Assembly (NCBI GenBank): GCA_016869765.1 | Contig: VGES01000002.1 | Span: 1 to 59,963 of the forward strand | Length of the DNA stretch: 59,963 nt | Direction: 5' to 3' | Origin: Alphaproteobacteria bacterium | Lineage (GTDB): Bacteria > Pseudomonadota > Alphaproteobacteria > SHVP01 | Shown here: positions 29,443 through 43,698 of the stretch, in pieces | How positions within the stretch are numbered: the first letter of the stretch is position 1 | How the letters are laid out: each line of letters opens with the position of its first letter | The notes under the pieces: generated by a model | The model's input: the letters and a program-made list of their open reading frames with translations, nothing else | Databases searched by the model: none | Told to the model about the DNA's origin: nothing | Program-made: the position numbers and the translations under genes

Positions 29443-31155
29443 TCAGCCTCGCAACAGTCGAAGCAGCCGGGCGGGTGTGGGGGCCGAGGATACGATCCGG
29501 GCTCGCGGGTTGATCTTGACGATCCCACGCCAACGGTCGGTCATGGGCGAGGTCGGCTCACCGAGGACGACGAACGCCCGCGTCAGACCTCGGAGATCGG
29601 GTTCGGGCCGGTAGCGGACCGCGGCTTGGAATGCTTCGCCATAGCTGCGATAGGCCTTCAACACCTCGAGCAACCGAGCTTGGAGTTCCTCCGGTCGCAG
29701 GGTCAGGTCGACGCGCCGGATGGCCATCCGCGTTCGGCGATACCACGGCCAATAGGCATGTTGGTCTCGCAGCATCAGCCACGTGCGATAAAGATGGCCG
29801 CCATCCCACGTCGGTTCGATCGGCGGCGTGTAGGCGTGGGTGAACTCGCGCCGTTCCTCCTTCGTCCACCGTGGCAGGTCCTCGAGCACGAGGCCCGCGA
29901 CCCGTTCGCCATGGCGCGCAGTCAGCCGCAACGCGATCGCCGCGCCCACGCCGACACCATAGACATCGACGATCGGCCAGCCGCCGTGGTCGAGCACGTC
30001 GCGGACCGCGCCAACGTAGACATCGAGCGATCGGCGCCCGGCCCGCAACGGATCGGAGTCCCCGCAGCCCGGGAAATCCGGGGCAACCACCGGCCGCCGT
30101 TGACCCAAGCCATTGATCAACGGCGCAAGGGCTTGGGAGGATCCAGGGACATCGTGGAGCAGCAGAATGGGACGCCCGGACCGAACCATGAGGCGCCTGA
30201 CCAACACCTGGCCCCGGGGCCGACGGTCGACGAACGTCCGGGTCACACGACGCGGAATATCTCGGGGTTCGTGGTCCGGTGGCGAATCGCCCGAGGCATA
30301 GCCGCGCAGGGCCTTCACCAAGGTCCGACGATAGACGTCCATATCGCGGCCGAGCTTCTTGATCCGTTGGCCGGCCGCGAGGCGCGGCAGCATGTCGAGG
30401 CAGTGAAAGAGCATGCTGTCCGCGCGCGCCATGAACAGTGCCGGAACGCGCAATGTCTCGACGGCCGCCTTGGCGGGATAACGAAACGCCGCCTCGACCA
30501 CCGTCCTCAGGTTGTCGCCGGCCCGGAAGTTGTCGAGCACCCCCTCGTGCATCGTGCTCGGCGAGGGCATGTCGATGTCACGACGGTTGGCGCCGCGACG
30601 GCGATACCAAGGGAACCAGAAAATATGGTCGCGAACGTGCGACCACGTTGTGGTGAGGTGCGCGCCATCCCAGGTCGCACGAAACGGCATGAGGTAATAG
30701 GCGTCGTCACCGTCATCCGATTTGGCCACGTGGGTGATATCGGCCACTTCCCGCGGCGTGAATAGAGGCAGGCTGTCGAGCACCACGCCGAGGACGCGCT
30801 CGGGAAAACGGCAAGCCAGTTCGAGGGCGATGCAAGCCCCGGTCTTGGTCCCGAACAACGCGAAACGGCCGATCCCCAGAGCATCCAGCGTCTCGACCAG
30901 CGCGGCGGCAAATTCGCCAATCCGGGGACGGCGTTGTAGCAAGGGATCGGAATCGCCGCAGCCCGGCGTATCGAAGGCGAAAACGGTTGCATGGGGTGCC
31001 AACAGCCTCATCAGGGGCACGAGGCCCGCCGAGGACTGCGGCGACTGATGCACCAGCACGACCGGTGGGCCGCTGCCCGTGCGGCGATAGTGGACCGCGC
31101 GATCGCCGACGTGGACGTAGCGACGCCGGATCACGTCGCCACCCGGCGCCGCCAT
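29443..31155 (-). CDS. Fused double alpha/beta-hydrolase-fold protein, both nucleophiles absent
   Basis: 570 residues in two homologous halves. Half 1 (about 10-285) has VLVHQSPQSSAGL, FDTPGCGDSDPL and elbow GTKTG (102-106), so the Ser position is Lys104. Half 2 (about 315-570) has LLLHDVPGSSQAL, DFPGCGDSDPL and elbow GVGVG (400-404), so the Ser position is Gly402. Both halves share WDGxHL...TW...RD...WPWYRR in the cap. The single-domain gene at 2416-3261 belongs to the same clade. Neither half shows a clear catalytic His. The ATG abuts the methyltransferase TAG with no gap (TAGATG). Binding, scaffold or unusual catalysis are all possible. Confidence 0.88.
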   Translation of the reverse strand: MAAPGGDVIRRRYVHVGDRAVHYRRTGSGPPVVLVHQSPQSSAGLVPLMRLLAPHATVFAFDTPGCGDSDPLLQRRPRIGEFAAALVETLDALGIGRFALFGTKTGACIALELACRFPERVLGVVLDSLPLFTPREVADITHVAKSDDGDDAYYLMPFRATWDGAHLTTTWSHVRDHIFWFPWYRRRGANRRDIDMPSPSTMHEGVLDNFRAGDNLRTVVEAAFRYPAKAAVETLRVPALFMARADSMLFHCLDMLPRLAAGQRIKKLGRDMDVYRRTLVKALRGYASGDSPPDHEPRDIPRRVTRTFVDRRPRGQVLVRRLMVRSGRPILLLHDVPGSSQALAPLINGLGQRRPVVAPDFPGCGDSDPLRAGRRSLDVYVGAVRDVLDHGGWPIVDVYGVGVGAAIALRLTARHGERVAGLVLEDLPRWTKEERREFTHAYTPPIEPTWDGGHLYRTWLMLRDQHAYWPWYRRTRMAIRRVDLTLRPEELQARLLEVLKAYRSYGEAFQAAVRYRPEPDLRGLTRAFVVLGEPTSPMTDRWRGIVKINPRARIVSSAPTPARLLRLLRG

Positions 31156-32286
31156 CTACTTCTGAGCCGCGATCGTCACCCAGCCTCCTCCGCTCGATGC
31201 GGCGATGTAGCCCCCCTTCGCCCTGCTGGCCGCGGTGACGCGGATTCCCTTGGCCGAAAATCCGGCCCCGGTCATGACAGCCTTCGGATCGAGCGAACGC
31301 ATCTGCGCCCAGCACGGTTCGTTGTTGGCATACGTGTCCCAGTCGGCGTCGAAAGCCTCGTACGGCGTCATCCCGGCAAACAACGTGATGTCCTGGTGCA
31401 CGCAGACCCCACCAGGGGCCAGCAGTCGATGACACTCCTTCATGATGCGTGTGACCGCCTTGCGCGAAACCTCATGCAGGAAAATATGGGACACGATCAA
31501 ATCGAAGTGACCGTCCGGGTAATCGGTCGCCTCGGCGTTGGCCTGGCGAAAATGAATCGCGGCGCCGAGGGCTTCGGCCCGGGCATGGGCGTAACGCAAC
31601 AGCGGTGCGGAGACGTCGATGGCATGGACCTCGGCATCCGGAAACGCCCGACAATAGGGTAGCGTCGAGGTGCCGACCGTGCATCCGATGTCGAGGATCC
31701 GCCGCGGCTTGAGCTTGGGATAGAACTGCCGGACCACGACGCTCAGTTGCTGGCCCATGCTGTCGTTGTAGGGGCCGAGCTTGCCCCCGGTGTACCAGTG
31801 AACCCCGAAATCGAAGATCGCGCCGGCGGCGACGTCGTCCTCGGTCCGCTCCGTGGCGTAGCCTCCGGGCATGCAATGCACGTCGGCCGCAGCAATGTAG
31901 CGCGGCGGCACCACCCGGGAATCGAGCGTCAAGGTTCCCTTCTTCCGCCCACGGCCGACGCGGGCCCGATCGATCAGGACCGGCAGATCGCGTTCGACCG
32001 GGTCGACAGCGGCATCCCACAACATCTCTTGGCTGGTGCGCTGCAGGGCCGCCCAGGTCTGGTAGACGGGTTCGGCCAACATGAGCTTGCGAACCTCATG
32101 CCGGTCGCGCGGCGGACGTTTGTTGGCCCGCCGAAATCTTGGCGCCGCCAATCGTTCGTAGGCGAGTTGGTTGCCAGGACGAAGATCGCGGGTGAGGTGC
32201 CCCTTGAGATCTCGCACGAACTCGCAGCGCGCCAACTCGTCGTGATCGGCGTGCGGCATCATTGTGTGTTCGAACGGTCCAGCCAT
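31156..32286 (-). CDS. SAM-dependent methyltransferase with long conserved N-terminal region
   Basis: 376 residues. Class I methyltransferase motif I is DIGCTVGTS (199-207), then VHAIDVSAPLLRYAHARAEALG (motif II/acidic residue), QANAEATDYPDGHFDLIVSH and LHEVS. Ahead of it are about 190 residues that are not part of the methyltransferase fold, with DRHEVRKLM and YQTWAALQRTSQEM (about 61-87) and IAAADVHCMPGGY. A clear paralogue with the same layout is encoded at 54352-55515. The gene is packed between the GFA-fold gene (18 bases) and the fused hydrolase (0 bases). The methyl acceptor is unknown. Confidence 0.88.
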   Translation of the reverse strand: MAGPFEHTMMPHADHDELARCEFVRDLKGHLTRDLRPGNQLAYERLAAPRFRRANKRPPRDRHEVRKLMLAEPVYQTWAALQRTSQEMLWDAAVDPVERDLPVLIDRARVGRGRKKGTLTLDSRVVPPRYIAAADVHCMPGGYATERTEDDVAAGAIFDFGVHWYTGGKLGPYNDSMGQQLSVVVRQFYPKLKPRRILDIGCTVGTSTLPYCRAFPDAEVHAIDVSAPLLRYAHARAEALGAAIHFRQANAEATDYPDGHFDLIVSHIFLHEVSRKAVTRIMKECHRLLAPGGVCVHQDITLFAGMTPYEAFDADWDTYANNEPCWAQMRSLDPKAVMTGAGFSAKGIRVTAASRAKGGYIAASSGGGWVTIAAQK

Positions 32287-32734: not shown

Positions 32735-34303
32735 TCAGAGTTTGCCCACTTTGGCGCGATCACGAAGTTCGCGCTTGAGGATCTTGCCTGCCGCGTTGCG
32801 CGGCAACGCGTCGATAAAAATGAATTCCTTCGGCACTTTGAACTTGGCGAGTTGCTCTTTGCAGTAGTTTTCCAGGCCGTCGGCGGCGATGGTCTCTCCA
32901 GGCCGCCGCACGACGACCGCCTTCACCGCTTCGCCCCACTCCGGATCGGGAACGCCGATGACGGCCACTTCGGCAACGGCCGGGTGGTGCTGCAGAATTT
33001 CTTCGATCTCGCGCGGGAAGACGTTGACCCCGCCGGTGATCACCATGTCCTTCTTGCGATCGACGATATAGAGGTAACCCTCCTCGTCGAGTTTGCCCAT
33101 GTCGCCGACCGTAAGCCAGCCCTCGGCGGTATAGGCCTCGGCAGTGGCCTTCTCGTTCCGCCAATAAGCATTGAAACCGAGGGGCGAACGCGTGAACAAC
33201 TCGCCCACCTCGTTCGGGCCGGCCGCTTGGCCATCCTCGCGCAGAATCTTGATTTCGACCCCCGGGTACGGGAGCCCGACGCACTGTTCCTTGCGGAGCT
33301 GATCCTGGGGCCGCAGGTTCGTGCACAGGCCGCCCTCGGTGGACCCGTAGGTCTCGTGCAGCAACCCCCCGCCGAAGTGCCCGACGATCTGCTCCTTGGT
33401 CGCCTGCAGCAGGGGCGCCGCGTTCGAGATCATCGTCTTGAGGCTCTTGGTCGAGTACCTGGACAGCGCCTTGGGGCCGAGAGCGAAGATGCGGTGGAAA
33501 TAGGTCGGCACGAAGAAGCAATTCGTGAGCTTCATCTCATCGATCTTGCGCAGCAGCAACTCGGGATCGAAGCGCGGGAGAATTTCGCAGAAGCCACCGA
33601 AGAAGATCGGGGCCATGGCGAACACGTAGCCGGCGCCGTGGTAGAGCGGCGCGGTGGCGAGCGCGCGGTCATCGGGCGAATAGCAGCCGAATTCCGATCC
33701 CATGGTGTAGAACGCCAGGACGCGCGAGCGGTGCGACAGGAGGCAGCCCTTCGGATTGCCCGTCGTGCCCGAGGTGTAGGGAATGCAGAAGACGTCCCAC
33801 TCCTCGAGCGGCGTCGTCGGCATGATCGGCTTGGCCCGCATCAGCCAGTCTTCGTAGTCCTTGCCGATGACGATGATGCGTTCGACGGTCGCGAACTTGA
33901 TCGACCGCGCCTTCTCTTCCTGGCTTTCGTGAACGAACAGGACCTTGGCTTGGGAGTCGTTGCAGATGTACTCGGCCTCGCGCGCCGTCACCCCTGGCGG
34001 CACCATGGCCGGAGCGGCGCCGATCGAGGACAGTCCCGCCACGATCTCCAGGAACTCCATGATGTTGGGCGCCCACAGCGCAGCGTGGTCGCCTTTCTTC
34101 AGGCGCAGATCGTGCAGCGCCCCCGTCGAAACCCGGTCGAAGCGATCGACGATCTGGGCGTAGGTGAACTTGCGATTTTCCTGCGCCAACGCAACTTTGT
34201 TGGGCGTGCGTGCCTTGGCCGTGCGGACCCCGTCCGCAATCAGCATCGAACGGTAGCTGGGTGGACGGCCGGGGAGCGGCAGCGTCGGCCGTTCAAACGA
34301 CAT
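32735..34303 (-). CDS. Class I acyl/aryl-CoA ligase (AMP-forming)
   Basis: 522 residues. The adenylate-forming motifs are complete: YTSGTTGNPKGCLLSHRS (P-loop), the YGSTEGG aromatic/substrate motif, GWLTVGDMGKLDEEGYLYIVDRKKDMV in pieces (A7-A8) and LPRNAAGKILKRELR with the catalytic lysine (A10). It activates a carboxylic acid to its CoA thioester. Ligases of this length include fatty-acid and aryl-acid enzymes; the substrate cannot be read. It begins 11 bases inside the end of the upstream cysteine hydrolase gene and its stop sits one base from the GFA gene, so it is in the same operon. Confidence 0.92.
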   Translation of the reverse strand: MSFERPTLPLPGRPPSYRSMLIADGVRTAKARTPNKVALAQENRKFTYAQIVDRFDRVSTGALHDLRLKKGDHAALWAPNIMEFLEIVAGLSSIGAAPAMVPPGVTAREAEYICNDSQAKVLFVHESQEEKARSIKFATVERIIVIGKDYEDWLMRAKPIMPTTPLEEWDVFCIPYTSGTTGNPKGCLLSHRSRVLAFYTMGSEFGCYSPDDRALATAPLYHGAGYVFAMAPIFFGGFCEILPRFDPELLLRKIDEMKLTNCFFVPTYFHRIFALGPKALSRYSTKSLKTMISNAAPLLQATKEQIVGHFGGGLLHETYGSTEGGLCTNLRPQDQLRKEQCVGLPYPGVEIKILREDGQAAGPNEVGELFTRSPLGFNAYWRNEKATAEAYTAEGWLTVGDMGKLDEEGYLYIVDRKKDMVITGGVNVFPREIEEILQHHPAVAEVAVIGVPDPEWGEAVKAVVVRRPGETIAADGLENYCKEQLAKFKVPKEFIFIDALPRNAAGKILKRELRDRAKVGKL

Positions 34304-34928
34304 TGCTGAGTTCCACCTTCCAGGAATCGAGCACTTCGCTCACCGTCATCAACTGCGCGAAGAAATTGCCCATGGTCTTGAGCGAAATCTGGTAGCGGTC
34401 ATCCTCGACCTCGGCGATGGCATCCGAGACGACATAGGTGCGAAAGTCCCGTTGACTCGCGTCGCGTACCGTCGTTTCGACGCACATGTTGGCGGTCACC
34501 CCGCAGACAACGAGGTTCTCGACCTGCATCGCTCGCAGGATGGCGTCGAGCTGGGTCGAGTAGAACGCGCTCGGGCGATTCTTTTCGATCACGGTCTCGT
34601 CGGCGTAGGGCTTGAAACCCTCGGCCAGGTCCGCGTCCCAAGTGCCCTTGGCGCAGAGCCTCACGTCCTTCAGGCCCGGCATGATCTCGTTGACGATGAC
34701 GCCGCCATCCTTGAAGTCGGATTGGTAGACGTATTGGGTGAAAATCACGGGCACCCCGGCCTTGCGAGCCCCTGCGATCAACCGCAGCGAGCCGGGGATC
34801 GCCTCGCGCAGGCGCTGATAGGGAAAACCGAGCTTCGCCATCGCGCCCTGCGGCTCGAGGAAGCTGTTTTGCATGTCGACGACGAGAAGCGCCGCATCTT
34901 TGCGCACGAGCGGGGCGAGTGAGGCCAT
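34293..34928 (-). CDS. Isochorismatase-like cysteine hydrolase (copy 2)
   Basis: 211 residues from the ATG at 34928. The catalytic triad of the isochorismatase-like fold is intact: Asp18 in VVDMQNSF, Lys116 in IEKNRPSAF, Cys149 in GVTANMCVETT. Members hydrolyse amides such as ureidoacrylate, N-carbamoyl acids or nicotinamide. It is closely related to the protein encoded just upstream (34939-35568); both share QRDxRTxVVxDA and GTWDAxxA. The next gene, the CoA ligase, overlaps its end by 11 bases. An acid released here would be a fitting ligase substrate. Confidence 0.92.
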   Translation of the reverse strand: MASLAPLVRKDAALLVVDMQNSFLEPQGAMAKLGFPYQRLREAIPGSLRLIAGARKAGVPVIFTQYVYQSDFKDGGVIVNEIMPGLKDVRLCAKGTWDADLAEGFKPYADETVIEKNRPSAFYSTQLDAILRAMQVENLVVCGVTANMCVETTVRDASQRDFRTYVVSDAIAEVEDDRYQISLKTMGNFFAQLMTVSEVLDSWKVELSNVV

Positions 34929-34938
34929 AGGATCCTCC

Positions 34939-35568
34939 CTAGGCGGCTGATTTTGCCGGAACGCCCCAGGCCGCGAGGACCTCATCGACCGTCATAACTC
35001 GGGCGAACAGGTATTCCATGGCCTTGAGCGCCACGTCGTGACGGAACGCCTCGACCTCGCCGACCGCGTCGCGGACGACGAACGTACGGTAGTCGCGCTG
35101 CGACGCATCGCGCACGGTGGTCTCGACACAGATATTCGTGGTCACGCCGCAGACCACGAGATTGAGGATGCGCTGGGCCCGCAGGTAGGACTCCAGTCGG
35201 GTGGCGTAGAACGAACTCGGGCGGTTCTTGTCGATCACGACTTCGCCGGCGAGCGGTGCGACCTCGGGGGCGATCTCGGCGTCCCAGGTACCGGCGGCAC
35301 ACAGGCCGACATCACGCAGCATCGGGCTCTGCTCGCGCACGCGGATGCCGCCATCGCGATAGTCGGTCTCGTACACGTAGCGGGTATGAAAGATCGGCAA
35401 CTGCGCCGCCCGAGCGCCGGCGAGAAGGCGCGCGACCCCCGGAGTCGCGGCCGCGAGGCGGGCCCAGTCCCGCCCCAGGCGCGCGATCGAGCCCTTGGGC
35501 GAGAGGAACCCGTTCTGCATGTCGACCACCAGGAGCGCGGTACGGTCGCGCCCCAATGCCATCACCAT
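34939..35568 (-). CDS. Isochorismatase-like cysteine hydrolase (copy 1)
   Basis: 209 residues. The triad is intact: Asp16 in VVDMQNGF, Lys114 in IDKNRPSSF, Cys147 in GVTTNICVETT. It is a tandem paralogue of the next gene, separated by 10 bases, and matches it in motif spacing. Two intact copies suggest either a hetero-oligomer or two related amide substrates. It follows the amidohydrolase gene by 24 bases. The RYVYETDYRDGGIRV loop with Tyr residues is similar in both copies and probably shapes the pocket. Confidence 0.92.
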   Translation of the reverse strand: MVMALGRDRTALLVVDMQNGFLSPKGSIARLGRDWARLAAATPGVARLLAGARAAQLPIFHTRYVYETDYRDGGIRVREQSPMLRDVGLCAAGTWDAEIAPEVAPLAGEVVIDKNRPSSFYATRLESYLRAQRILNLVVCGVTTNICVETTVRDASQRDYRTFVVRDAVGEVEAFRHDVALKAMEYLFARVMTVDEVLAAWGVPAKSAA

Positions 35569-36658: not shown

Positions 36659-38071
36659 ATGCCCGACCTCCGCCAGTTCCTAACCGAAGCCAAGGGCCAG
36701 ACGCTGCGGCCGGAGCGGCCTTTGTCCGTCGTCCAGGAAATCACGGCACTGCAGCAGGAACTCGATGCCCGCGGTGCCTACCCGGTGATCTACGTCGAGC
36801 AGGCGAAACTGCCGGATGGCGGCGCGGCCAGCATGCCGATCGTCTGCAACTTGACCGCGAGCCGCGAACTGACCGCGCGAGCGCTGGGGGTTGCCGATCA
36901 CCGGGACTTTGCCGCGGCCTACGCGACGCGCACGGCCAAAGCAATCCCTCCCGTGGTCGTCACGCGTCACGACGCGCCCGTGCAGGAGATCGTCGAACAG
37001 GGTGACCGAGCCAGCCTCTTCGCGCTTCCCGTTCTTACCCAACACGTGATGGACCCGGGGCCCTATCTGACGGCGGCGCACGCCACCACCTACGACCCCG
37101 ACACGGGGATCGACAACACGGCGATCCAACGCTGCTGGGTCAAGGGCCCGCGGCGGATGTCCTACTACCCCTACCCCGCCTCGCACAACACGCGGAACGT
37201 GCGGAAATTCTGGGCCCGGGGCGAGCCGTGTCCGGTCGTGTTCTGGATCGGCCACCACCCGACCGTGCTCATGGGCTCGCAGGCCAAGCTGAAGTATCCC
37301 GAAAGCCACTGGGCCGCGGCCGGCGGCCTGCTCGGAGAACCGATCCGCCTGGTCCCCTCGGTCACCTTCGGCGAACTGCTGGTCCCGGCCGACGCCGAGA
37401 TCGTCATCGAGGGTTACGCGCCGGCCAACCGCTGGGAGCCGGACGGCCCCTTCGGCGAGTACACCGGCTACATGGGACCGCAGGTCGCCGCACCGATGTG
37501 CGAGATCACCTGCATCACGCGGCGGCGCAACGCGATCTATCACGACTACGGCTCGGGCCACGCCGACATGCTGGTCCCCGACAACATGGTGATGGAGGGC
37601 AAGGTCTACGGCATGGTGCGACCGGTGGCGCCTTCGTTGCAGCGCATCCATGTGCCAGTCTCGGGCCGCCGTTTCCACGGCTACATGCAGTTCAAGAACC
37701 CGGCGATCGGCGAGGCCCGTGATGCGCTGACCACCGCGCTCGGCTATCGCCGCTTGAAGGCCGTGTTCGCGGTCGACGACGACATCGACGTCTTCTCCGA
37801 TGCCGAGATGATGTGGGCCCTGGCGACCCGCGTGCAATGGGACCGCGATGCGATCGTCGTGAGCGGCCTTTCGGGTTCGCTGATGGACCCCTCGTTGCCG
37901 CGCGGTGCGCGCACGGTGCAGAAGATCGGCATCGACGCAACCCTCGCCCCCGCCGAGGTGCCGGGCGCCCCTCGTCCCGTCCCGCCACGCAACCGCGTCT
38001 CGGACGCGGCGCTTGCGACGGCACGCGAACTTCTTGCCCAGTCCGACGGCGCGGGATGGCCCAACCTATGA
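36659..38071 (+). CDS. UbiD-family decarboxylase (prFMN-dependent)
   Basis: 470 residues from the ATG at 36659. UbiD features are clear: the central strand region QRCWVKGPRRMSYYPYPASHN, WAAAGGLLGEPIRLVP, and the acid motif DGPFGEYTGYMG (262-273). The two acidic residues of the ExxxxE/D catalytic pair are Asp262 and Glu267. It decarboxylates, or carboxylates, an aromatic or unsaturated acid using prenylated FMN. No ubiX flavin prenyltransferase is in the window. Its stop overlaps the zinc-ribbon mini-protein start (ATGA). Divergence from the ubiquinone-type UbiD and the context argue for a catabolic role. Confidence 0.92.
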   Translation: MPDLRQFLTEAKGQTLRPERPLSVVQEITALQQELDARGAYPVIYVEQAKLPDGGAASMPIVCNLTASRELTARALGVADHRDFAAAYATRTAKAIPPVVVTRHDAPVQEIVEQGDRASLFALPVLTQHVMDPGPYLTAAHATTYDPDTGIDNTAIQRCWVKGPRRMSYYPYPASHNTRNVRKFWARGEPCPVVFWIGHHPTVLMGSQAKLKYPESHWAAAGGLLGEPIRLVPSVTFGELLVPADAEIVIEGYAPANRWEPDGPFGEYTGYMGPQVAAPMCEITCITRRRNAIYHDYGSGHADMLVPDNMVMEGKVYGMVRPVAPSLQRIHVPVSGRRFHGYMQFKNPAIGEARDALTTALGYRRLKAVFAVDDDIDVFSDAEMMWALATRVQWDRDAIVVSGLSGSLMDPSLPRGARTVQKIGIDATLAPAEVPGAPRPVPPRNRVSDAALATARELLAQSDGAGWPNL

Positions 38072-38274
38072 CCACCGGCAATCGCACACCGCTCCGCCCT
38101 CACACCGCCCCCGGCGAAAAACGCGGCAACACGACCTGGGTGTCCTGCCCATCGTGCAAGGAGTGGTTCCACACCACCGAAGACCTGATTGCGCGCGGCA
38201 CCATCGCGCTGCATTGCCCCCATTGCCACCACGAGTTCCTGCCCGAAAAGTCCCCGCGCCTGATCGTAGCCTGA
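38068..38274 (+). CDS. 68-residue zinc-ribbon protein coupled to UbiD
   Basis: The ATG overlaps the UbiD stop by 4 bases (ATGA), so it is translated with it. Two CxxC knuckles (SCPSC near 27-31 and HCPHCHHEF near 50-58) make a zinc ribbon; the rest is polar with no membrane segment. In several hydroxybenzoate decarboxylases the UbiD-type C subunit comes with a small D subunit of 60-80 residues that also carries paired CxxC motifs (BsdD/YclD type). This protein may be the equivalent, although it is not obviously homologous over its full length. It lies 2 bases before the next gene. Confidence 0.85.
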   Translation: MTTGNRTPLRPHTAPGEKRGNTTWVSCPSCKEWFHTTEDLIARGTIALHCPHCHHEFLPEKSPRLIVA

Positions 38275-38276
38275 CC

Positions 38277-39047
38277 ATGCGGCGCTTTCTCGTTCTCGTG
38301 CTGCTGCCACAGGAACCCTCGGTCATCGAACGGCGCGCCCGGCAGCGACACCTCGTTCCTGACCATTGGGGGATCGAACTCCACTACCGCGGCGTGCAAG
38401 CGGCCCCCGCCACGAACCTGTGCCCGGCCGATTTCGCCCTGGCGGAGATCGCGCTGTTCGAAGCCGGATTCACCGCCCAGGAAGAAGGGTTCGACGCGGT
38501 GCTGGTCGACTCGATGAGCGACACTGCGGTCGATGCCCTGCGTTCGGTCCTCGATATCCCGGTCGTGGGACCTGGCCGCGCCGCGTTCCTGACCGCGCTC
38601 ATGCTGGGCGAACGCGTCTCCGTGCTCGCCATGTGGTCCCATTGGGCGGTGCTCTATACGCGAACCCTCGGCGCAATGGGCCTCCTGTCCCGCCTCGCCT
38701 CGGTGCGTTCGATCGAGGAAGCGCCCGACACCCGCCACCTGCTCGCCGGCAAGGAGGCCGAGATCTTCCCCAAACTGCTCGAGGCCGGCCGGCTGGCGAT
38801 CGAAGAGGACGGCGCCGACGTGATCTGCCTGGGTTCGACGACGCTCTACCAAGCGCACGCCTACCTGGCGGAGAGACTGCCCGTCCCGGTCATCAACCCC
38901 GCGCCTCTCTCCTACCTGGTGGCAGACATCATGTTCGCGTTGTCGCTGCGTCCGAGCCGCCGGGCGCACCCCAAGCCGCTGCTGGATCAGCAGGCCATGG
39001 TCCGTGCGATGATGACGGCGGCGGCCCGCCAAGAAGGAACACGCTAG
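38277..39047 (+). CDS. Asp/Glu/hydantoin racemase-fold protein, both catalytic cysteines replaced (copy A)
   Basis: 256 residues. The two-domain racemase fold is recognisable from FEAGFTAQEEGFDAVLVDSMSD, LDIPVVGPGRAAF and ICLGSTTLYQAHAYL. In true racemases the first segment carries the first catalytic Cys; here it is Ser79 (DSMSD). The second Cys, normally in xLGCxxM, is Ser187 (LGSTT). Thus neither acid/base cysteine is present. The sequence aligns without gaps with copy B over the first ~190 residues. It is the third gene of the UbiD operon. It may catalyse something other than racemisation or be a binding protein. Confidence 0.88.
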   Translation: MRRFLVLVLLPQEPSVIERRARQRHLVPDHWGIELHYRGVQAAPATNLCPADFALAEIALFEAGFTAQEEGFDAVLVDSMSDTAVDALRSVLDIPVVGPGRAAFLTALMLGERVSVLAMWSHWAVLYTRTLGAMGLLSRLASVRSIEEAPDTRHLLAGKEAEIFPKLLEAGRLAIEEDGADVICLGSTTLYQAHAYLAERLPVPVINPAPLSYLVADIMFALSLRPSRRAHPKPLLDQQAMVRAMMTAAARQEGTR

Positions 39048-39836
39048 ATGCCCAAGATCCTCGTCCTCGTCCCGTTTCCGATGGCGGCCGACCAGCTCGC
39101 GCTGCGCCAGGCCCAGAGCAAGGCCGTGCCGCTCGAACCCGGCACGACGCTGCACTACCGGCCGGTGAAGGCGGCGCCACGCACCTACGTGTCGCAGCAG
39201 GACTATGTGCTGGCCGACCTGTCGCTGTTCGAAGCCGGGCTCTCGGCCCAGGCCGACGGTTTCGATGCGGTCATCATCGACACGGTGAGCGATTCGGGCG
39301 TCAACGCGCTGCGCTCGATGCTCGACATTCCGGTCGTCGGGCCGGGCCGCGCCATGTTCTTGAACGCGCTCATGCTGGGTGACCGGTTCTCGATCCTCGC
39401 CATGTGGAAACACTGGTCGGGCCTCTACAAGAAGACCCTCACCGAACTCGGGCTCATGGAGCGACTCGCCTCGGTGCGCTCGATCGACATCGTGCCCGAC
39501 AACCGCAATCTCCTGGGCGGCAAGGAGGAAGACGTGTTCCCCAAACTGCTCGAAGCCGGCAAGCGCGCTATCGAAGAAGACGGAGCCGACGTGCTGCTGT
39601 TGGGTTCGACCACCATGCACCAGGCGCACGGCTATCTCGCCGAGCGCCTACCGGTGCCCGTCATCAACCCGGGGCCGCTCTCCTACAAGATGGCGGAGAC
39701 CGCGATCGCGCTCCGCCTCAGCCACAGCCGCGCCGGCTACCCCAAACCGATGGTCGAGAAATCGGCCATGGTCCGGGCGATGATGGATGGCGCCGCCGCG
39801 GCCGAACGCGGCCGACCCGTCGAGAAGCTGAGCTAG
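39048..39836 (+). CDS. Asp/Glu/hydantoin racemase-fold protein, cysteine-free (copy B)
   Basis: 262 residues, starting directly after the copy A stop (TAGATG). The positions of the two catalytic cysteines are Thr79 (DTVSD) and Ser187 (LGSTTMHQ). The whole predicted protein has no cysteine at all, so classical two-cysteine racemase chemistry is excluded. Shared blocks with copies A and C are FEAGxxA, GxDAV, SDxxxxxLRS, IPxVxPGRA, GSTT and PVINPxPL. The tail differs between copies. Confidence 0.88.
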   Translation: MPKILVLVPFPMAADQLALRQAQSKAVPLEPGTTLHYRPVKAAPRTYVSQQDYVLADLSLFEAGLSAQADGFDAVIIDTVSDSGVNALRSMLDIPVVGPGRAMFLNALMLGDRFSILAMWKHWSGLYKKTLTELGLMERLASVRSIDIVPDNRNLLGGKEEDVFPKLLEAGKRAIEEDGADVLLLGSTTMHQAHGYLAERLPVPVINPGPLSYKMAETAIALRLSHSRAGYPKPMVEKSAMVRAMMDGAAAAERGRPVEKLS

Positions 39837-39845
39837 GAGCGCACC

Positions 39846-40616
39846 TTGGCCAAGAAAAAAGCGCTGGTGATCGTCCCCTTCGCCCTCGATGCCGCGGGGG
39901 TCGCCAACCGCAAGCTCCAGACCAGGGCGGTCAAGCTCGGCCCCGACATCGAATTCGATTTCAAGCCGGTGACGGCGGGACCGACCAGTTTCATGAGCGC
40001 GCACGACTGGATGCTCATGGACCTCGCGATCTTCGAAGCCGGTCTCGAAGCGGAGAAAGACGGCTACGACGCGGTGGTGATCGATACCATGAGCGATTCC
40101 GGCATGGCGCCGCTCCGTTCGATGCTCAAGATCCCGATCGTCTCGCCCGGACGCGCCTCCATGATGTTCGCGCTATTGCTCGGCAACAAGTTCGCCGTGT
40201 TGGCACAGTGGGAACCCTCGGTGCTCAGGATCAAGAAGGCCGTGCACGAATACGGCCTGTCGAACCAGTGCGCCGCCGTCGAACACTTCGACACGCCACC
40301 CGACTTCGCCAACCTCTTGTCCGGAAAAGAAGACAAGGTGTTTCCGAAGATGAAGGCCGCGGCCGAGCGCGCCATGGCCAAGGGCGCCGAGGTGATCTGC
40401 CTCGGTTCGACCACCATGCACCAGGCGGCCGAGTACCTCGCGGGCGCGTTGCCGATCCCGGTGATCAATCCGGGGCCGCTCACCTACAAACTGGTCGAAG
40501 CATGGCTCGCCCTCAAGCTCAGCCATAGCCGGAAGGCCTACCCCGCGCCGCTCGTGCCCAAGATCGAGATGGTCCACGCCATGCTCGCCGCCGCGGCCAA
40601 AGCGGAGAAAAAGTAA
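39846..40616 (+). CDS. Asp/Glu/hydantoin racemase-fold protein, catalytic cysteines replaced (copy C)
   Basis: 256 residues from a TTG with AGGAGCGCACC upstream, which sets the start 9 bases after the copy B stop. The catalytic positions are Thr81 (DTMSD) and Ser188 (LGSTTMHQ). It is the most divergent copy (for example QWEPSVLRIKKAVHEYG in place of MWKHWSGLYKKTLTELG). Three such genes in a row suggest a hetero-oligomer or stepwise use on related substrates. It is the last gene of the forward UbiD operon; the vapC gene ends 10 bases later on the other strand. Confidence 0.88.
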   Translation: MAKKKALVIVPFALDAAGVANRKLQTRAVKLGPDIEFDFKPVTAGPTSFMSAHDWMLMDLAIFEAGLEAEKDGYDAVVIDTMSDSGMAPLRSMLKIPIVSPGRASMMFALLLGNKFAVLAQWEPSVLRIKKAVHEYGLSNQCAAVEHFDTPPDFANLLSGKEDKVFPKMKAAAERAMAKGAEVICLGSTTMHQAAEYLAGALPIPVINPGPLTYKLVEAWLALKLSHSRKAYPAPLVPKIEMVHAMLAAAAKAEKK

Positions 40617-40625
40617 CACACCGTT

Positions 40626-41060
40626 TCAGCCGACCAGCGGGTTGAACGTCGGCAAACGGGGGAACCGGCTGAAGTCGCGATCCGCCGTCCATAGCGTTCG
40701 CACACCATGTTGCAGACAGATCGCCGCCACGCGCGCGTCGTGCACAGCCGGGCCAGCGAGGCGACTTTTCGACAACAGCGCGCGCAAGGTCGCCCAATGA
40801 TCGGCCGTTTCGCCGAGAAGCATCAGCGACGGCGATTCGAGCCATGCCGCCACCTGCTCCAAGGCGTCCGCCATCGACGTTGGTGGCGCATAGATGCGTG
40901 GATGCGTCACGACGGCGACGAACTCGTGGATACAAGGCCAGGGGATGGCCCACGTCGGCGCCCCCTCGGCAAGCTCACGCACATTGGTCGCGGCACGATC
41001 GTGAAAGTCCGAGTCTTCGCGATGTGCGTAAACCAGGATGTTGGTGTCGACGGCGATCAC
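40626..41060 (-). CDS. vapC: PIN-domain ribonuclease toxin, VapC type
   Basis: 144 residues from a GTG at 41060 that overlaps the antitoxin stop (GTGA). The PIN-domain acids are Asp5 (VDTNILVYAH), Glu46 (HEFVAVV), Asp108 (HDARVAA) and Asp127/129 (TADRDFSRF). VapC toxins cleave tRNA or rRNA. The late start codon and overlap are typical of toxin-antitoxin pairs. It is unrelated to the flanking metabolic genes and marks the boundary between two catabolic sets. Confidence 0.92.
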   Translation of the reverse strand: MIAVDTNILVYAHREDSDFHDRAATNVRELAEGAPTWAIPWPCIHEFVAVVTHPRIYAPPTSMADALEQVAAWLESPSLMLLGETADHWATLRALLSKSRLAGPAVHDARVAAICLQHGVRTLWTADRDFSRFPRLPTFNPLVG

Positions 41061-41311
41061 CCGCCGCGCCCTTCGTAGATCATTTCGCGGACTTGAGCCC
41101 ACGTGCCCTCGGCGACACCGGGTTGCAGGCCATCGCCTTTGACGCTTGCCCGACGCAGTCTGAACGGCTCGCCTGCCCGTGCTTCCGACACGACGCGGTT
41201 CAGGCCCCGCTCGACGATCGTACGCAGCGTTACCCCTTCACGCTCGGCCAGCTTGCGCGCTTGCCGCAAGAGAGGATCGGAAATCTCGATTGTCGTCTTA
41301 ATGGTGGCCAT
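41057..41311 (-). CDS. vapB: VapB-type antitoxin
   Basis: 84 residues from the ATG at 41311. The N-terminal half (MATIKTTIEISDPLLRQARKLAEREG) is a ribbon-helix-helix-like DNA-binding domain; the C-terminal half (RLRRASVKGDGLQPGVAEGTW) is the usual toxin-masking tail. It probably represses its own operon. An A/T-rich stretch with repeated ATATGGGT/ACCCATAT (about 41313-41345) lies just upstream and could be the operator. Confidence 0.88.
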   Translation of the reverse strand: MATIKTTIEISDPLLRQARKLAEREGVTLRTIVERGLNRVVSEARAGEPFRLRRASVKGDGLQPGVAEGTWAQVREMIYEGRGG

Positions 41312-42592: not shown

Positions 42593-43336
42593 GTGAAGCT
42601 GCTCGACGGCGCCGGCCGGGTCGCCCTGGTCACCGGCGCGGCGGGTGGAATCGGGCGTGCGCTGGTCAAGGGCCTGCGCGAAGCGGGCGCCAGGGTCACG
42701 GCCCTCGATCTGTCGGAGCCCGCGCTGACCGCCGTCTACGGCCGCGACGAACACGTAAGCACGATCGCCGGCAGTGCGGCCTCCGAAGGCGACGTCAAAA
42801 GCGCCGTGGCGGCGACCCTCGACACGTTCGGGCGGATCGATTTTGCGATCAATCTCGCCGGCATGGTCGGCGCCGGCCGGCTCGCCGAGACGAGCCTCGC
42901 CGACTGGCAACGCCTGATCGACATCAATCTGACGTCGGCGTTCCTGCTGTGCCGCGAGTGCCATCGCGCGCTCAAGGCCAGTAAGGGGGCCGTGGTGCTG
43001 ATCTCCTCCACGAATGGTCTCAATGGCGGCTCGTTTTTGTCGGGTGCCGCGTACGCGGTCGCCAAGGCCGGCATCATCAACTTGACGCGTTACCTCGCCA
43101 AGGAATGGGCTGGCGACGGCATCCGCGTCAATTGCCTCGCGCCTGGACCGGTCGCGACACCGATGCTCGATCGCCTCAAGGCGGACGAACACGCCGCCCT
43201 CAAGCGCGCGATCCCGATCGGTCGCTATGCCACCGCGGAGGAATGCGCGGCGCAGATCCTGTTCTTCTGTTCGACGCACGCCGGGTCGACCACCGGGACG
43301 GTGGCCAACATCTCGGGCGGCCTGGTGCTCGATTGA
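42593..43336 (+). CDS. Short-chain dehydrogenase/reductase
   Basis: 247 residues from a GTG at 42593, overlapping nothing but starting one base after the previous stop. The cofactor motif is TGAAGGIGRA (14-23), followed by ALDLSEP (Asp favours NAD). NLAGMVG is the NNAG equivalent, and the catalytic set is SST and YAVAK. The C-terminal IGRYATAEECAAQILFF is typical of 3-oxoacyl-ACP-reductase-like SDRs. It probably oxidises an alcohol made by the upstream oxygenase-like protein or reduces a ketone; this is inferred from its place. Confidence 0.9.
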   Translation: MKLLDGAGRVALVTGAAGGIGRALVKGLREAGARVTALDLSEPALTAVYGRDEHVSTIAGSAASEGDVKSAVAATLDTFGRIDFAINLAGMVGAGRLAETSLADWQRLIDINLTSAFLLCRECHRALKASKGAVVLISSTNGLNGGSFLSGAAYAVAKAGIINLTRYLAKEWAGDGIRVNCLAPGPVATPMLDRLKADEHAALKRAIPIGRYATAEECAAQILFFCSTHAGSTTGTVANISGGLVLD

Positions 43337-43338
43337 AC

Positions 43339-43698
43339 GTGCCCCCGATCACCGGCTACCACGCGCACATCTACTACGACGCGGCGAGCCGCGAGACCGC
43401 CGCCATGGTTCGTGCCGAGGTCGAACGCACGTTCGTCGTGCGCATGGGCCGCTGGCGGGACGAACCCGTCGGCCCTCATCCGCAGCCGATGTACCAGGTG
43501 GCCTTCGAGCCCGCTGTGTTCGCCGAGATCGTACCGTGGCTGATGCTGAACCGCCGCGGTCTCACCGTTCTCGTCCACCCCGAAACCGGGGATGACGTGG
43601 CCGACCACGAGGTTCATCCCCTGTGGTTGGGCGAGAAGCTCACGCTCGACATCGAGATGCTGAGGCGCTTCATCGCCAAGGAGCGCGGCGAGTCCTGA
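43339..43698 (+). CDS. DOPA 4,5-dioxygenase-like small extradiol-type protein
   Basis: About 119 residues. I favour the GTG at 43339, which gives the family start MPPITGYHAHIYYD; a TTG at 43333 overlaps the SDR stop. His-rich blocks match the family: YHAHIYYD near the N-terminus, GPHPQPMYQVAF in the middle, and VLVHPETGDDVADHEVHPLWLGE at the end, read in parts. Fungal homologues cleave DOPA extradiol-fashion; bacterial ones are largely untested. With the upstream SDR and TenA-fold protein it forms a three-gene unit that may handle an aromatic or amine compound. Confidence 0.85.
   Translation: MPPITGYHAHIYYDAASRETAAMVRAEVERTFVVRMGRWRDEPVGPHPQPMYQVAFEPAVFAEIVPWLMLNRRGLTVLVHPETGDDVADHEVHPLWLGEKLTLDIEMLRRFIAKERGES

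Follow-up and report, generated by a model that had tools for sequence, protein, structure and literature searches.

Racemase-fold proteins with serine or threonine in place of both catalytic cysteines form a widespread family encoded in bacterial degradation operons

Introduction

Known members of the Asp/Glu racemase superfamily need at least one cysteine, as is illustrated by arylmalonate decarboxylase (AMDase), in which Cys188 is the only proton donor (PMC4996985), and by OpaE, whose C90S/C199S double mutant is left with at most 0.3% of its activity (PMC12661438). Maleate isomerase employs two cysteines, one of them as a covalent succinyl-cysteine (PDB 2XED, title). Threonine at one site has been found compatible with racemase activity in Ecl-DER, and in an enzyme of another fold, trans-3-hydroxyproline epimerase, a cysteine-to-threonine change gives a dehydratase (PMC8142540). 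Members with one cysteine replaced are thus described, and none with both gone was found in the literature searched.

The window analyzed here, a stretch of 59,963 nucleotides from an alphaproteobacterium (contig VGES01000002.1), contains three open frames lying almost end to end on one strand, at positions 38277-40616. An earlier note, made from the sequence alone, had described their products as racemase-fold proteins without either catalytic cysteine, selected for a new function, possibly as Ser/Thr-based lyases, isomerases or ligand binders, in concert with a neighboring UbiD-type protein. They belong to a widespread enzyme family of degradation operons, called RAC in the following, and are no local accident, since at least 130 related sequences, from many bacteria, have retained the replacement.

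The Three Genes and Their Cysteine Sites

Copy A (RAC1a; 38277..39047, plus strand, 256 aa) and copy B (RAC1b; 39048..39836, plus strand, 262 aa) are followed by copy C (RAC2; 39846..40616, plus strand, 256 aa), which begins with a TTG start preceded by TAGGAG. All three match PF01177 (Asp/Glu/hydantoin racemase) with 98-109 bits, well above the cut-off of 31, which places them in the superfamily. Alignment with the Klebsiella allantoin racemase (3QVJ/3QVK) pairs T79 of copy B with Cys79 and S187 with Cys184 of 3QVJ, and the residues previously assigned to the two sites in A, B and C (Ser79, Thr79 and Thr81 at the first, Ser187, Ser187 and Ser188 at the second) proved correct in every number. 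Copy B indeed has no cysteine anywhere; A has Cys49 and Cys184, and C has Cys142 and Cys185. Another cysteine close by, at positions 76, 140, 174 or 184, where cysteine is frequent, can be dismissed as a catalytic requirement, since these positions are variable and copy B lacks cysteine altogether.

Among 80 aligned members, position 187 is serine throughout and position 79 is threonine in 77 and serine in three, and with residues so nearly uniform the presence of Ser/Thr at both sites is not due to chance. Two RAC paralogues (L151:4590-5810 and L153:5286-6341) carry alanine at position 79 (DATSDSA) and keep GSTT, so that the hydroxyl at this site is not indispensable everywhere. A separate PF01177 group without either cysteine (AAFGDPG ... 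GAPLAGL; loci L110, L142, L181, L183, L184 and L187) suggests, from its sequences, another independent cysteine loss.

The genome from which the window comes contains ten PF01177 genes, six of them of the RAC type: besides A, B and C there are two more in tandem on the same contig, 33 kb further downstream (C2:73410-75037), and one by itself on contig 15. The copy on contig 78 is a classical Cys/Cys protein (ACFGDPG...LGCAGM), and that on contig 25 (L012:1-786) combines threonine with cysteine (NTVGDYG...LGCTCM).

Extent and History of the Family

RAC was defined by D[S/T]xSD together with GST[T/S], a family-profile score of at least 263 bits and membership of a clade free of cysteine-bearing sequences, and A, B and C all fall within this definition. 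Scanning 84,980 genomes with sequence patterns gave 288 relatives, 80 of which were examined, and the uniformity of this set is biased because the patterns contain the replaced residues. An artifact of the scan is ruled out by pattern-free profile searches, made in 60 related genomes, in 241 that sample the class and in 299 that sample the phylum, which show the same bimodal scores: among the matches examined, all those with at least 263 bits have D[T/S]xSD (Ala79 in two) and GST[T/S], and the rest reach at most 190 bits. In total, at least 130 distinct members were examined, every one with serine at the second site and threonine or serine at the first (alanine in the two paralogues mentioned). 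The family was present in 10 of 10 sampled genomes of the window's taxonomic family and in about 5% of the class sample (profile search, 241 genomes), and its hosts include Alpha- and Betaproteobacteria, Acidimicrobiia and others. Database names given to these proteins, such as "aspartate/glutamate racemase" or even "hydrogenase expression protein HupH", are very unlikely to be right since both cysteines are missing. No activity or ligand for any RAC member was found in the literature searched.

In a maximum-likelihood tree, the hydroxyl-type sequences stand apart from all cysteine-bearing homologues (SH-aLRT 97). Conservation of DxxSD and GSTT as a clade, which the earlier note had proposed to examine, is supported by this tree, by the gap in profile scores and by a tree built without both motif regions, and the free intermixing of cysteine-bearing homologues that it had named as fatal to its reading is not seen, as none lies inside the clade. 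The motif columns do not drive the result: the grouping persists after their removal, except for the degenerate partners described below, and the five residue classes then need four changes, the minimum possible. About half of the motif-free bootstrap trees place the degenerate partners within the family, as would be predicted for decayed RAC2.

The L012-type Thr/Cys clade adjoins RAC on the tree and Cys/Cys enzymes lie further out, which suggests a stepwise loss, of the first-site cysteine to threonine and of the second-site one to serine, with the Thr/Cys clade as a possible evolutionary intermediate. Copy A sits on a long branch and arose from B by a lineage-specific duplication. The three linked copies had been offered as parallel evidence for selection, and this part of the argument does not hold: A, B and C are paralogues, A duplicates B and their ancestor was already changed, so that there was one ancient change and not three independent events. 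The best explanation is a single origin of RAC on the hydantoin/allantoin-racemase side of the superfamily.

Conservation, Selection and Predicted Fold

R20, Q23, D52, D78, S81, D82, R89, S187 and T188 are invariant in all 80 aligned members, H191 is found in 79 (copy A has tyrosine instead), and T189, N207 and Y213 are nearly invariant. For closely related genes compared within RAC1 or within RAC2, omega mostly lies at 0.03-0.09; a single, very close pair gives 0.29. This strong conservation supports the proposal of a selected function, and recent pseudogenization of A-C is ruled out by the open frames, the low omega and the invariant residues, only copy A being somewhat divergent.

The AF2 model of copy B (pLDDT 94, pTM 0.91) has the two-domain racemase fold, and structural comparison by Foldseek ranks allantoin racemase first (TM 0.79-0.85; 0.79/0.84 against 3QVJ), followed by OpaE, hydantoin racemase, AMDase (about 0.6) and maleate isomerase. 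According to the AF2 secondary structure, the conserved residues would sit at helix starts and in the loops that follow strands 1-3, 6 and 7, where the active sites of the superfamily are. The invariant residues, the low omega and the predicted fold together bear the signature of what would be a working enzyme family and not of decay.

The Tandem Partner

Two types can be separated, RAC1, with A, B and 48 of 48 tested single copies, and RAC2, with C. At least two adjacent family genes, with RAC2 or its degenerate form as the partner, occur in 31 of 99 arrays. The degenerate second gene following RAC1 (L082:10778-11473, L090:10777-11457, L166:14771-15427, L167:12787-13527 and L169:14774-15463) was found in Rhizobium/Neorhizobium, Microvirga, Bosea, Stappia, Roseovarius, Tistrella and Variovorax relatives. 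Its product lacks R20/Q23, the DTxS residues, the GKE segment and GSTTMH, so that the pocket loops bearing T79 and S187 are gone, and it keeps the racemase fold in the predicted structure (pLDDT 91). In nine of nine cases it scores higher with the RAC2 than with the RAC1 profile, and an omega of 0.18-0.26 indicates evolution faster than that of RAC1 and RAC2 but still constrained.

From sequence and model, the degenerate protein looks like a pseudoenzyme subunit, and RAC2 is a paralogous partner of RAC1, probably serving as its second subunit. Gene adjacency and the degenerate-partner pattern point to a putative RAC1-RAC2 heteromer, the simplest reading being that RAC1 would be active and RAC2 structural or regulatory. 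Such a heteromer is not obligatory, since some two thirds of the arrays contain RAC1 by itself. The loss of the whole pocket in RAC2-derived partners, like that of both known catalytic residues, would also agree with the idea that RAC is a non-catalytic ligand-binding protein, chaperone or regulator in which the racemase fold acts as a binding module. This we consider improbable in view of some nine polar loop residues that are invariant across phyla in both RAC1 and RAC2, the low omega of RAC1 and the position of RAC as an ordinary enzyme-like cistron of catabolic operons.

Operon Context

On the minus strand, the window operon encodes an AMP-forming acyl-CoA ligase (32735..34303), two isochorismatase-family cysteine hydrolases (hydrolase 2 at 34293..34985 and hydrolase 1 at 34939..35568, the latter nearest to BiuH/RutB, below the cut-off) and an amidohydrolase of family 2 (PF04909; 35593..36744, its true start probably downstream of the ORF start). 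On the plus strand, there follow a UbiD-family decarboxylase (36659..38071), the sole PF01977 protein of the genome, a zinc-ribbon-like protein of 68 aa (38068..38274; a weak match below the Pfam cut-off) overlapping the UbiD stop, RAC1 and RAC2, a TenA/heme-oxygenase-fold iron-containing redox enzyme (PF14518; 41863..42591) that belongs to the conserved operon type, a short-chain dehydrogenase (SDR; 42593..43336), also a conserved neighbor, and an ORF with a DOPA 4,5-dioxygenase domain in residues 85-184 (43105..43698), with homologues in L018, L019 and L023. The order from the ligase to the dioxygenase-like gene is kept, whole or largely, in six other loci (L018, L019, L020, L021, L023 and L041). 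The proposed link with UbiD is real in operons of the window type and only local, since UbiD lies near 6 of 80 fetched relatives and most operons lack it, which rules it out as a general partner. Just downstream of copy C, a putative PIN-domain (VapC-type) protein is encoded on the minus strand (40626-41102). Single genes with two tandem alpha/beta-hydrolase domains (window 29443-31155 and L013:541-2187) each lie near a RAC locus of the window genome, and related methyltransferases with an unusually long N-terminus (window 31156-32286 and L011:15145-16395) each lie near a RAC array.

Across 80 loci, the neighbors of RAC include isochorismatase-type hydrolases (35), MmgE/PrpD (34), PEP-mutase/methylisocitrate-lyase-type proteins (27), SnoaL (27), fumarate-reductase-like flavoproteins (25), hydantoinase/lactamase A (18) and B (16), aconitase/DmdB-type subunits (15 and 10) and dihydropyrimidinase (7). 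A cluster in which a tautomerase-like N-terminus is fused to a SnoaL-like domain (for example L025:7657-8322) occurs near RAC in 18 loci. Annotated plasmids show the same neighbor sets, with PuuE-type allantoinases in addition in Variovorax. The 4-Mb window genome contains 17 isochorismatase-family genes, several as tandem pairs, so the background of this neighbor is not negligible. The common theme would be opening of a cyclic amide, imide or ureide ring, amide or carbamoyl hydrolysis and subsequent processing of short dicarboxylates; the neighbors vary with the operon type, so more than one substrate may be involved. No description of these operon types was found in the literature searched.

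A racemase for cyclic ureides would fit the many operons with hydantoinase A/B, dihydropyrimidinase or PuuE-type allantoinase beside isochorismatase-type hydrolases, and allantoin racemase is the closest fold; RAC would then still be a racemase or epimerase, with hydroxyl or carboxylate residues replacing the thiols, as the threonine of Ecl-DER would permit at one site. We regard this as unlikely, given the cysteine requirement of known members, the nearly dead double serine mutant of OpaE and the classical Cys/Cys racemases that share loci with RAC1 in three cases (L028, L033 and L085), from which it appears that RAC probably carries out another reaction. A cis-trans or double-bond isomerase of substituted maleates or maleamates, acting after an isochorismatase-type amidase, would suit the 35 loci with such genes, the fumarate-reductase-like, aconitase/DmdB-type and PEP-mutase/methylisocitrate-lyase neighbors and the fold match with maleate isomerase, but the succinyl-cysteine nucleophile of that enzyme is absent from RAC, and we give this alternative a low probability.

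Possible Function

The explanation that we favor, with roughly balanced confidence in it as a whole, is that RAC is a cysteine-independent subfamily under purifying selection whose members serve as subunits in catabolism, RAC1 as the catalytic one and RAC2 as its partner, with lyase chemistry. The loss of both cysteines, the clade and its conservation, the fold, the tandem partner and the operon contexts are read directly from the data; the heteromer, lyase chemistry and the substrate class are what we infer. A lyase is favored because known members need cysteine, because Cys/Cys racemases share RAC1 loci and because a cysteine-to-threonine dehydratase provides a precedent. In such a lyase, the pocket between the two domains would bind a carboxylate-bearing ring-opened intermediate, and hydroxyls of the loops D78-T79-x-S81-D82 and G186-S187-T188-T189, each at a helix N-terminus, would stabilize an enediolate-like intermediate. 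D78, D82 or H191 may act as acid/base, judging from their position at strand-to-helix loops in the model, and the substrate would undergo elimination/hydration or decarboxylation and not two-thiol racemization.

More tentatively, and with less than even confidence, RAC may represent an undescribed, widespread class of cofactor-free lyases that use a Ser/Thr hydroxyl pair for the cysteine dyad, often with an active and a degenerate sister subunit, and that are central to uncharacterized pathways for breaking down N-heterocyclic (cyclic imide- or ureide-like) or aromatic compounds. The RAC operons point to widespread degradation pathways, and the natural series from Cys/Cys through Thr/Cys and Thr/Ser to the pocket-less partner offers a direct test of how the reaction type changes within one fold.

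Comparison with Known Systems

Allantoin/hydantoin racemases (KpAllR, 3QVJ/3QVK; PfAllR, 5LFD) resemble RAC in fold, at about 25% identity, and in the same two active-site loops, but their two catalytic cysteines (Cys79 and Cys184 in KpAllR) are Thr/Ser and Ser in RAC (T79/S187), and D78, S81, H191, R20 and Q23, invariant in RAC, are absent from them. AMDase shares the superfamily fold (TM about 0.6) and cofactor-free chemistry, its first site is likewise not cysteine (Gly74, in LMGTSLS) and its S76 corresponds to S81; RAC, however, has neither Cys188 nor the motifs MGTSLS and SCGGL, showing DTVSDS and GSTTM instead. In nicotinate degradation, maleamate amidase is followed by maleate isomerase. 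The latter, a cis-trans isomerase, is similar to RAC in fold (TM about 0.6) and in an operon logic downstream of an amidase, but its two catalytic cysteines, the covalent nucleophile included, are absent from RAC, which has hydroxyl residues at both sites. Ecl-DER, other Cys/Thr racemases and the L012 protein have threonine at the first site as RAC does, but keep the second cysteine where RAC has serine. Trans-3-hydroxy-L-proline dehydratase of the proline racemase superfamily offers an analogy only, its fold and family being unrelated to RAC. By the tests made here, A, B and C are members of the Asp/Glu racemase superfamily, but they are not allantoin/hydantoin racemases, AMDases or maleate isomerases.
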